NCBI GenBank assembly: GCA_024278755.1
Contig: JAJRSO010000008.1
Span: 1-64,000 of the forward strand
Direction of reading: 5' to 3'
DNA from: Calditrichota bacterium
GTDB lineage: Bacteria > Calditrichota > Calditrichia > Calditrichales > Calditrichaceae
DNA: 64,000 bases
Numbering within the stretch: position 1 is the stretch's first letter; each line of letters starts with the position of its first letter. Below are positions 39,789 to 64,000 of the stretch, piece by piece. Under the pieces are notes generated by a model. The model worked only from the letters and a program-made list of their open reading frames with translations, was not told where the DNA came from and did no database searches. A program made the translations under genes and the position numbers.

Positions 39789-40005
39789 CATTAGTGTCCG
39801 GTTAAAAAAGTAAATGTTCTGGTTTGTTGAAAGTTCAAAACAATACCCCTCTTCTTCCCGAAACCGGGATTTTCCCTCCCTTGAAGCATCAAGAGAAGGG
39901 GTTGAGGGTGGGTTCAGAAACAAATCTCGTGAATACAAATTTTTCCTAATACTTTGGTATTGCAAGACTTTTAACCATATTTTAAACTTTAACCGGGCAC
40001 TCTTG
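39789..40005. mobile_element. MITE-like element (copy B) in a 448-base intergenic region
   Basis: Left end CATTAGTGTCCGGTTAAAA (39789-39807) and right end CTTTAACCGGGCACTCTTG (39987-40005) are imperfect inverted repeats. The first 55 bases are nearly identical to the copy at 62919. The interior carries the family CCCTCCCTTGA palindrome. No target duplication remains. The rest of the gap 39594-40041 is AT-rich, with short direct repeats of the type TTCACTGTTCATTG, and holds no gene. Confidence 0.6.
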
Positions 40006-58594: not shown

Positions 58595-58620
58595 CGTTTT
58601 TCCTTTGGTTTTATTCATAA

Positions 58621-58679
58621 ATCGTTATTCGTTGCTCTTCAATCTGATATTCCTTTGATTAACAAACGCGGATTGCAGA
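58621..58679. repeat. Palindromic intergenic repeat, copy 1
   Basis: AATCGTTATTCGTTGCTCTT ... CCTTTGATTAACAAACGC and then GGATTGCAGA. The same order of words recurs at 60250-60303 and 60487-60560, sharing AACGCGGATTGCAGA. The two halves are inverted with respect to each other, so the copy can form a hairpin. Confidence 0.65.
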
Positions 58680-58718
58680 AGTTTTGCTGGTCACTGACAA
58701 CGCATTTGTTTCACCCGT

Positions 58719-59019
58719 AAATCGTTAATCGTTGATTTCCAATCTGAAATCTTCTTTTTAATTCGTGTCCGGTTAAAATTGAAACTGCCTGAAAGAACTG
58801 TAATACCAAGGTATTAAGGGAAATGTATACTAACAGGACTTGTTTCAAAACCCACCCCCCATCCCCCTCCCTTGACGCTTCAAGGGAGGAGGAGAGTCCC
58901 GTGGAATCGGGGCTCGGGGGAGAGTTTGTAAAATAATCTCATTAACAGTACGAGTCTTTTTAATTTAAGCGAACACTATTGATCAACGATTGGAGATTAA
59001 CGAACGTAGATTGCAGAAG
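58719..59019. repeat. Palindromic repeat, copy 2, split by MITE-like element C
   Basis: The left half (58719-58759, AATCGTTAATCGTTGATTTC) and right half (58982-59019, ATCAACGATTGGAGATTAAC and ACGTAGATTGCAGA) match the halves of the intact repeat at 60487. Element C lies between them at the loop. Confidence 0.6.
58760..58981. mobile_element. MITE-like element, copy C
   Basis: Left end AATTCGTGTCCGGTTAAAA and right end ATTTAAGCGAACACTATTG are degenerate inverted repeats of the family ends. The interior includes CCCTCCCTTGA/TCAAGGGAGG and CCGTGGAATCGGGGC-type palindromes. No clear target duplication remains. It is inserted in the loop of the repeat described at 58719-59019. Confidence 0.55.
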
Positions 59020-59030
59020 TTTTAGTTCTG

Positions 59031-59360
59031 AAATCGTTGATAGTTTGTCTTCAAGCTTTATTCTTTCTCATTAGTTTCCGGTTAAATAATCATTCGGGCA
59101 AAACAGATAACTTTTAAATTGCCGATGTCTCTTACCCTCTCCTGGCCCGGCAGTTTCGCCGGGCCTTTCCCCTCCCTAATGCATTAGGGAGGGGTGTCCG
59201 AAGGACAGGGTGGGTTAGTGATTATGAGAATTCATAAATCAAGTTGCTCGAATATTAAGACACTGTAAGGTCTTTAATGACTGCTGATTATTCAAATCGC
59301 TTGTGATTTAACCGGATACTAATGATTCTTTCTCTTGATTAACGATTGGAGATTTACGAT
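59031..59360. repeat. Palindromic repeat, copy 3, split by MITE-like element D
   Basis: The left half (AATCGTTGATAGTTTGTCTT, 59032-59051) and the right half (TTGATTAACGATTGGAGATT, 59335-59354) flank element D. Removing the element and one copy of the nine-base duplication rebuilds a sequence like the intact copy at 60487. Confidence 0.6.
59069..59324. mobile_element. MITE-like element, copy D, with 9-bp target duplication
   Basis: This is the best copy: 256 bases with 19-base inverted ends, CATTAGTTTCCGGTTAAAT at the left and ATTTAACCGGATACTAATG at the right (one mismatch). Both sides are flanked by the direct repeat ATTCTTTCT (59060-59068 and 59325-59333), a nine-base target duplication. 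The interior is palindromic (GCCCGGC/GCCGGGC and CCCTCCCTAATGCATTAGGGA) with no open frame. It must depend on a transposase encoded elsewhere. Confidence 0.75.
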
Positions 59361-59370
59361 GTTTGTAGTT

Positions 59371-60228
59371 CTAAAACAAATCCTCTTTTTGCTTTTGCAG
59401 CCGCCTCGCTTTTTTTTTGGCAATCTGATTGAACAGCCGCATACCGGGCCGAATATTAACCGGGGTCTTCTCAATATGATTTAAATATTGGTCAAAAAGT
59501 TCTTCATCCAATATTTTGGCCGCGTAAAATTTTGCCGCATAGACGTAGGCCAATAAAAATGCCTCGTCATTCAGTTTGAAATTCTTTTCGAAATAGGCGC
59601 CAGCCTTCTGCGGGTCGCCGCCCATAATGCGTGGCTTCATCCCGTACATACTGCCCTGAAATAAATATACCGCACCGTAGAAAAAATCTGGCTGAAGTTC
59701 TTCTACCCGCTGCATATAGCGCTGAATTTCGGGTAGCGCTAAAATCGCTTCCGGATCATTTAGTGAAAGATTAGCGAACCCTGCCCAGGCAAAACCGCTC
59801 CAGAAAAGAGCGGGCACATCTTTTTTCCCGTATTTTTTCAGAAAACGCTCCAGATCGGCAAGGCCCTGCTTCCGCGCATTTTCAAACCCTTCTTTTTGAT
59901 TTAAAACCCGCAGGGCATAATCCCTGGCCCGCAGATAAAACCGTTTGGCCCGCTGCGGATTTTCATCTTCGGCGAATCCAAGCGCGTAGCCGGACCAGCC
60001 CTGAGCCAGTAACAAAAGTAATTCTTTATTTTGCGGATCGCTTTTCAGCAGCCCTTCAAGCAGTTTTAAATTGGAGCTCAGCGCCTGTTCGGCAACCTTT
60101 AAATCGGATTCTTCGTACAATGCCTCGGCGCTGTTTTCCAGAACCGGCGTCATCTGACGCAGAACAAATACCGTGGGGCTGCAGGAAAAAAGCAGCAGGG
60201 CGGCAAAATATATTATCTGTTTTTTCAT
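59371..60228 (-). CDS. TRAP transporter T component (TatT-like) lipoprotein
   Basis: The 285-residue protein starts at ATG 60228 and has lipobox LLFSC (LLLFSCSPTVFVLRQMTP). It is mainly helical with TPR-like repeats (EALYEESDLKVAEQAL, LLLLAQGWSGYALGFAED, FWSGFAWAGFANLSLND), as expected for TatT, the T component described in Treponema. TatT is thought to form a trimer that works with the DctP-type binding protein on hydrophobic ligands. The DctP gene is downstream on the same strand. GTG at 60240 is the less likely start. Confidence 0.82.
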   Translation of the reverse strand: MKKQIIYFAALLLFSCSPTVFVLRQMTPVLENSAEALYEESDLKVAEQALSSNLKLLEGLLKSDPQNKELLLLLAQGWSGYALGFAEDENPQRAKRFYLRARDYALRVLNQKEGFENARKQGLADLERFLKKYGKKDVPALFWSGFAWAGFANLSLNDPEAILALPEIQRYMQRVEELQPDFFYGAVYLFQGSMYGMKPRIMGGDPQKAGAYFEKNFKLNDEAFLLAYVYAAKFYAAKILDEELFDQYLNHIEKTPVNIRPGMRLFNQIAKKKARRLQKQKEDLF

Positions 60229-60249
60229 AGACAACGACACTCATTTTAT

Positions 60250-60303
60250 TAATCGTCGATCTTCAATCGGGCCTTCCTTTGATTAACGAACGCGGATTGC
60301 AGA
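60250..60303. repeat. Palindromic intergenic repeat, copy 4
   Basis: AATCGTCGATCTTCAATCGG followed by CCTTTGATTAACGAACGCGG and ATTGCAGA. It ends in the same 16 bases as copy 5. Confidence 0.65.
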
Positions 60304-60330
60304 AACTATCTGTGGCAACCTGTTGCAAAT

Positions 60331-60429
60331 CGTCTTTGCGAGGCGGCCGGCTTTTGACGGACGATGAAGTAATCCCCGCGCGGCTACAAGGGATCACTTC
60401 GTCCGGCAGCGGCCGGACTCGTGAAGACG
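60331..60429. repeat. CATTGCGAG-type hairpin repeat
   Basis: The outer arms CGTCTTTGCGAG and CTCGTGAAGACG pair with two mismatches, and the inner arms GAAGTAATCCC and GGGATCACTTC pair with one. It resembles the repeat class within 30068-30219 and at 46787. It occupies the 338-base gap between TatT and slipin together with the palindromic repeats, and nothing else was seen there. Confidence 0.55.
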
Positions 60430-60486
60430 GCATGGCCACCACTTTCCCTCGAACAAGTCCCTGCAGGATGACATTTATTATTTCTT

Positions 60487-60560
60487 AAATCATTATTCGT
60501 TGCTCTACAACCGGGCATTCCTTTGATTAACGATTGAAGAGTAACGAACGCGGATTGCAG
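60487..60560. repeat. Palindromic intergenic repeat, copy 5 (intact)
   Basis: TTCGTTGCTCTACAACC and GATTGAAGAGTAACGAA pair at 14 of 17 positions around GGGCATTCCTTTGATTAAC, followed by CGCGGATTGCAGA. This is the clearest uninterrupted copy and serves as reference for those split by MITE-like elements. It lies just after the slipin stop and may also end its transcript. Confidence 0.65.
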
Positions 60561-62619: not shown

Positions 62620-63444
62620 TTTTTTCCTATCTGAGTTAGCTGATTGATTTTATTGAAAAATAGAAGGATTCTCTTTTTAAAGCAAGCTGTTTTCGGGATA
62701 TTTTGAGAAGGAGTTCCGAGCCCCGAGATGGTCTAAAAAGATTAAAATACCACGAACAAATACGGATTTTTTGCACATTTCAATATTCTGCAAGAATACT
62801 ACCGCTGATAAAAAGAATGATTGAATATAGCAGATTAACGATATTAACAAAATTTTTTAAATAACGTATTTTTTCGGCGACATTGTGTGCTCAGGTACCT
62901 TTATTTTATATAAATTTATATTAGTGTCCGGTTAAAAAAGTGAATGTTCTGGTTTGCTGAAAGTTCAAAACAATAGGCTCTATGTTGCTCCGTGTGGGTA
63001 AAGGGCCAAAGCTTCGTGTCTGCCTGTAAAGTGTCGCCGCATTACGTAAACATCAATGACTGAAAATATTTTTTAATAACCCACCTGTCCCGATACTCGG
63101 GACACCCTCCCTGATATCAGGGAGGGAAGGTTCGGCGGTCATTAGACCCAGCTCACGACAAGCAGCCGAACAGAGAGGGTCAAACCCTTTGAAGCGCTAC
63201 ACAAATGGTATTGACGATGTTTGGGATCTTGTTTTTTCCACCCGCATAATTTAAAACAATTTTATTATCCACACAAAACGACATAGACTCAAATAATAAC
63301 TCTCCCCTTCCCGAAATCGGGATTTTCCCTCCCTTAAAAAAAAGGGAGGGGATTTAGCCGGAGGCGAGGGGTGTCCCGATCAACAGGCTGTTTCGCAATA
63401 ATTATACAACTTTATTAAATAATTATTATAGCCTGTAAGTCGGG
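62620..63444. other. Intergenic region before the CRISPR array, 825 bases
   Basis: It contains a MITE-like left end at 62919, several CCCGATA/TATCGGG and AGGGAGGG palindromes (63090-63130 and 63300-63380), and AT-rich sequence. I found no cas gene, no credible open frame and no RNA gene. If the array is transcribed from the right, this is its trailer side. Confidence 0.5.
62919..62980. mobile_element. Left end of a MITE-like element (copy E)
   Basis: ATTAGTGTCCGGTTAAAAAA followed by about 38 bases nearly the same as copy B (words ATGTTCTGGTTT and GAAAGTTCAAAACAATA). No matching right end was found before the CRISPR array, so the copy is truncated or rearranged. Confidence 0.55.
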
Positions 63445-64000
63445 GTTTCAATCCACGCTCCCGCACGGGGAGCGACTCTGACAAGCAGATAACGGTCGAC
63501 GGAACGGTGTACGTTTCAATCCACGCTCCCGCACGGGGAGCGACGCCCTGGTCATGCACATTAATGCCAAACCGATGGCCGTTTCAATCCACGCTCCCGC
63601 ACGGGGAGCGACCAGTCCCACGGTGTTTAGTAATTTTGCGTCGTGGTTTCAATCCACGCTCCCGCACGGGGAGCGACATAATGTTGAGCAGCTTTTGCAG
63701 CGCCTCATCGATGTTTCAATCCACGCTCCCGCACGGGGAGCGACGCCGCCAGGTCAAAAAGCCGCGCCCGCACCTGACGGTTTCAATCCACGCTCCCGCA
63801 CGGGGAGCGACTTCCCAATACTCGCCCAAGGGTATATATGATGCTGTTTCAATCCACGCTCCCGCACGGGGAGCGACAGCTGCCCGCGCGCGTAAAGATA
63901 CGCCAGTTCGCTGTTTCAATCCACGCTCCCGCACGGGGAGCGACCTCCTTAAGCTGCCGCTGGCCGATGAGGATGGTGGAGTTTCAATCCACGCTCCCGC
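63445..64000 (-). CRISPR. CRISPR array, type I-C-like, continuing beyond the window
   Basis: Eight complete 32-base repeats start at 63445, 63513, 63581, 63646, 63713, 63780, 63846 and 63913, and a ninth is cut by the edge (63981-64000). All are identical as far as visible, starting GTTTCAATCCACGC and ending GGGGAGCGAC, with a GCTCCCG/CGGGGAGC hairpin. The eight spacers are 33-36 bases. The repeat belongs to the class used by subtype I-C, whose transcribed form ends in ATTGAAAC; transcription should therefore run on the minus strand, with the leader and probably the cas genes to the right of the window. No degenerate terminal repeat is seen at the left end. Confidence 0.97.

Follow-up and report, generated by a model that had tools for sequence, protein, structure and literature searches.

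A MITE family of a Calditrichaceae genome, probably of IS4Sa type, with AT-rich target sites and two copies nested in intergenic palindromes

Insertion sequences (IS) of the IS4Sa subgroup are 1150-1750 bp long, possess ends of the form CA------T and the YREK motif, and generate duplications of 8-10 bp (Table 1 in De Palmenaer et al. 2008, PMC2266710), and the IS4-family element ISRm22 inserts into REPs in all of its copies (Tobes and Pareja 2006, PMC1525189). Bacterial MITEs (PMC10969869) are short, non-coding, bounded by TIRs, flanked by duplications, intergenic and multicopy. These features are shared by the elements described here, found in a 64,000-nucleotide stretch (hereafter the window) of a Calditrichaceae draft genome; they represent a newly noted Calditrichaceae family with a recurring C-rich/G-rich hairpin core, yet are the same in kind. 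With regard to IS4Sa (PMC2266710), the parent IS that we identified in other genomes are alike in that they measure 1273-1387 bp, begin with CA, have T at position 9, contain YREK and DDE, and are flanked by 9-bp duplications, whereas the window elements carry no gene and have only about 18 terminal bases in common with these parents. As with ISRm22 and REPs (PMC1525189), a putative IS4-family element interrupts a dispersed intergenic palindrome close to its centre; here, however, only two independent insertions lie in palindromes, the rest being in unrelated AT-rich DNA, and the palindromes of the window are AT-rich, not GC-rich. A location of most or all copies at palindrome centres, as seen for ISRm22, was not found. 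The MITE family is new in Calditrichaceae, while the phenomenon itself is already known, a palindrome-targeting IS4 element (ISRm22) having been published.

The preliminary description had placed MITE-like elements at 58760 (C) and 59069 (D), and both proved to be real, with inverted ends that have TCCGGTTAAA in common. The genes on either side encode a TRAP transporter T-component and a DctP solute-binding protein (minus strand), and a promoter/terminator scan of this intergenic region gave no signal above chance. Element D (59069..59324; this and all features below are given on the plus strand) is a 256-bp MITE of subfamily gamma, whose TIRs, CATTAGTTTCCGGTTAAA and TTTAACCGGATACTAATG, match at 19 of 20 positions, whose DNA folds back on itself (z = -8.4), and whose sister copy (contig C11, 1055-1288) is 85% identical. 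It is flanked by a perfect 9-bp target duplication, ATTCTTTCT, at 59060..59068 and 59325..59333, lying inside the spacer of an imperfect palindrome (left half 59029..59059, right half 59334..59361). When D was excised in silico together with one copy of the duplication, a palindrome-family sequence was restored, whose spacer matches the ATTCCTTT found at 60517-60524, the position homologous to the D insertion point, in the intact reference copy of the palindrome (60484..60560); the claim that the duplication occupies the place of the intact-copy spacer was borne out in this way.

Element C (58760..58981), a MITE of 222 bp, belongs to subfamily alpha; its ends, ATTCGTGTCCGGTTAAA and TTTAAGCGAACACTATT, are degenerate, and it joins two palindrome halves (58716..58759 and 58982..59022) at a point equivalent to that of the D insertion. 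It has no target duplication, as its flanks, TTCTTTTT and ATCAACGA, differ at 7 of 9 positions. The same insertion is present on contig C34 (4967-5158), within a copy of a whole block of about 400 bp (58609..59022 in the window, C34:4815-5200; 84% identity) that also includes a second palindrome-family copy and stands beside different genes at its two locations. As the C and C34 elements are closest to each other (94.8% identity, versus at most 81% between either of them and other alpha copies), C is one old insertion that was duplicated together with its surroundings, to or from C34. C lies in another palindrome copy than D and was inserted before the block was duplicated, and its target duplication would have been lost later, perhaps through recombination between elements or through deletion. 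Recombination between copies, which was also suggested for some ISRm22 copies without duplications (PMC1525189), would most simply account for the missing duplication. Elsewhere in the window, the element at 39790-40004 is a hybrid MITE, delta-like in its left half and alpha-like in its right half, and devoid of a 9-bp duplication; it looks like the product of recombination between two copies, which suggests that such exchange has taken place in this genome. Overall, the origin of C (alpha) and D (gamma) in different subfamilies upholds the view that two separate insertions took place.

The palindrome family to which the two split copies belong is genus-specific, dispersed, intergenic and AT-rich: 15 matches were found in the window genome and 11 in a sister species, and none in the remaining 13 genomes of the family that were searched. 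In the sister species, all 11 loci are free of such a MITE. Within 58614-60560, several copies of the palindrome family are clustered between the genes of one minus-strand run (NfeD, SPFH, TAtT, DctP), and a pattern search of the rest of the window revealed no further good copies. The reconstructed empty sites fold modestly better than shuffled sequences (z = -1.7 for D and -2.4 for C), as does the intact copy at 60484 (z = -2.3), while two degenerate copies, at 58614..58682 and 60246..60305, fold no better than shuffles (z = +0.5 and +0.4, respectively). Thus, of the statement that C and D each split a palindrome at its centre, the part that stands is that both interrupt copies at the matching place, but the palindromes are imperfect and their folds modest. 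Similarly, the palindromes were held to be older than the elements, which is true of the one that received D, whereas the C palindrome was duplicated with C already inside.

Copies of the MITE were gathered by a genome-wide search with the end sequence and by inspection of the stretches around the matches. Allowing up to 3 mismatches, TTAGTGTCCGGTTAAA was detected at 141 genome sites, as compared to 43 for the reversed control, an excess not attributable to chance, with 42 sites at no more than 1 mismatch among the matches listed. Pairing of ends yielded 26 elements, mostly 190-270 bp in length, plus copies cut by contig ends, so that the window genome holds about 30 copies with ends of the form C(A/T)(A/T)TAGTGTCCGGTTAAA, falling into at least 4 subfamilies. 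Alpha, of about 220 bp, includes C; beta measures about 255 bp; gamma consists of D and C11:1055-1288; and delta is made up of C58 together with copies at contig edges. A 9-bp duplication is the rule, as it is present in 16 of the 24 copies for which both flanks were available, and in about 30 copies from other genomes. Flank-to-flank identity reaches 0.965 at exactly 9 bp and only 0.27-0.35 at all other lengths tested, while the flanks of different duplication-bearing copies are mutually unrelated. No open frames of 90 aa or more occur inside C or D. The elements being short, with matching ends, no transposase gene, a constant 9-bp duplication (in D, not in C) and ends shared with autonomous elements, namely IS in other genomes, their description as MITE-like can be sharpened: they are MITEs. 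Rfam gave chance matches only, below threshold, and a literature search with the TIR sequence retrieved no relevant publication.

Several other repeats were observed along with this family. Positions 1-241 of the window correspond to a beta-subfamily MITE truncated at the start of the contig, and contigs C43 and C55 open with the same sequence; near-identical copies thus interrupted the assembly, a sign of recent activity. At 62920-63430, an unpaired MITE left end precedes two C-rich/G-rich hairpin cores; this stretch stops just short of a CRISPR array that begins near 63446 and has a 32-base repeat, GTTTCAATCCACGCTCCCGCACGGGGAGCGAC. C-rich cores resembling MITE interiors also occur without MITE ends in the window genome (C64:2267 and C47:34430). 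Finally, a record with the label KSB1 bacterium 4572_119 contains a MITE 85% identical to alpha (L136:5640-5859), reflecting either shared ancestry or transfer.

The 18-base end sequence recurs without mismatch in over 100 stretches from public genomes of bacteria, and at least 13 of 104 TIR-carrying stretches contain a gene, or part of one, for an IS4-family transposase of the kind described below. Complete IS elements with the same ends (1.27-1.39 kb, with one gene of about 390-410 aa) were identified in Chitinophagaceae, Prevotellaceae, Salegentibacter, KSB1 and a proteobacterial MAG, and perfect 9-bp duplications surround the Chitinophagaceae, Prevotellaceae and Salegentibacter copies. Their proteins match DUF4372, DDE_Tnp_1 and the NCBIfam IS4 model NF033592 (E = 6.7e-62 to 1e-81), and the YREK residues (Y293, R296, E300 and K307) are invariant, as are those of DDE. 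The spacings of D131-D197-E300 (65 and 102) agree with D(60-110)D(100-150)E, and the motif with Y(2)R(3)E(6)K. Judging from these sequence features, the parent IS belongs to the IS4 family and is predicted to be of IS4Sa type, the subgroup being assigned by ends, size and duplication length. In a Calditrichales record (L177), one of the 13 stretches above, a transposase fragment lies beside the same end and is 57% identical to the KSB1 protein. The search for a transposase with the same inverted ends, as proposed in the preliminary description, was therefore successful in other genomes, where IS4-type IS were found, but not in the draft assembly of the window genome: a profile of five IS4 transposases gave no match there or in the sister species, the former being a fragmented draft of 79 contigs, several of which end inside these repeats, which makes the absence less than firm. 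For a MITE, an autonomous partner in its own genome is usual but no requirement. Two candidate partners were set aside, namely a DDE_Tnp_1 gene of the window genome itself (C36:712-1002), which has no matching ends, and a match in genome G013 (L228), for which these ends were not seen in the stretch read.

The preliminary description had attributed the two nested insertions to a transposase that prefers hairpin loops or the palindrome spacer motif. A precedent within the IS4 family is ISRm22, which inserts at the palindromy axis of REPs in Sinorhizobium meliloti (PMC1525189). The insertions in the window come from different subfamilies and occupy homologous spacers at points that differ by a few bases, and their number, two, does exceed the 0.05-0.2 insertions in palindromes expected under uniformity (P = 0.001-0.02, in a test chosen post hoc), the palindrome family accounting for well under 1% of intergenic DNA, and one IS site (L126) lies in a strong hairpin. 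However, at 48 insertion sites with duplications, pooled over this and other genomes (about 30 from other genomes; one site appears in two registers), the best stem with the insertion point at its centre averaged 4.19, against 3.63 for shuffles (Wilcoxon P = 0.10) and 3.91 for neighbouring DNA (P = 0.45), so that the sites are no more palindromic than either control. The target sites of other copies, set in advance as the refuting test, are unrelated and vary from copy to copy with only AT richness in common, which speaks against the loop hypothesis, as do the 11 element-free palindrome loci of the sister species. In addition, as C is devoid of a duplication, the exact point at which it was inserted is unproven. 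A hairpin-loop preference is not supported, and we regard a loop- or motif-seeking transposase as quite improbable. What the sites do share is an AT-rich 9-mer that starts with A and ends with T; with orientations pooled, A occurs at position 1 in 76% and T at position 2 in 58%, a weak symmetric preference. Under a target profile built without D, the D site ranks at the 96th percentile of intergenic positions of the window, whereas palindromes, with 5.8% of positions, receive 0.5% of the weight and are thus not generally favoured. The nesting of MITEs in palindromes is chance or at most weak bias, and a modest post hoc excess remains.

That palindrome and MITE might form one composite mobile unit and spread together is brought to mind by the palindrome-plus-C block, which occurs twice beside different genes at 84% identity. 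It is, nevertheless, the one composite of its kind that was found; the flanks of all MITE copies with a duplication are unrelated, palindromes are mostly without a MITE, and the duplication of D lies immediately outside the MITE ends, which means that D moved alone, without the palindrome. We consider such a unit highly improbable. A different link between MITEs and hairpins concerns their interiors: it is conceivable, though rather doubtful, that MITE shells with near-identical ends in several phyla repeatedly capture host intergenic hairpin repeats and may spread them. MITE interiors resemble the abundant intergenic hairpin repeats of each host, which in the window genome are the C-rich/G-rich cores. 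In other phyla, same-ended MITEs (L132, L134, L174, L182, L202 and others) have interiors made of different hairpin repeats, of the GGGCTTTAGCCC, GGGAATCC and CCGCGTAGCGGA types.

The reading that we prefer, and hold to be very probable, is that C and D are non-autonomous IS4Sa-type MITEs moved in trans into AT-rich targets, not hairpins, D having entered a palindrome spacer and C being older and copied as part of a block. An IS4-family transposase (IS4Sa type, DUF4372 plus DDE_Tnp_1) would mobilise both elements in trans, a step not directly seen in the window genome because its draft assembly holds no IS4/DUF4372 transposase gene. Such an enzyme would recognise ends of the form C(A/T)(A/T)TAGTGTCCGGTTAAA and join them to staggered cuts 9 bp apart, giving the 9-bp duplication. 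The target would be chosen by its AT-rich surroundings rather than by a hairpin, with AT-N5-AT as a weak symmetric preference, and D would have landed in the AT-rich spacer of a palindrome copy, where insertion would presumably be harmless.

Overall, the repeats of the locus were laid down in layers, a palindrome being followed by C and then by block copying in one case, and by D in the other. An orphan family of repeats from an uncultured lineage would be linked to a transposase family that bears a name and whose target rule was measured, and the tempting idea of a loop-seeking transposase in the window genome is removed.
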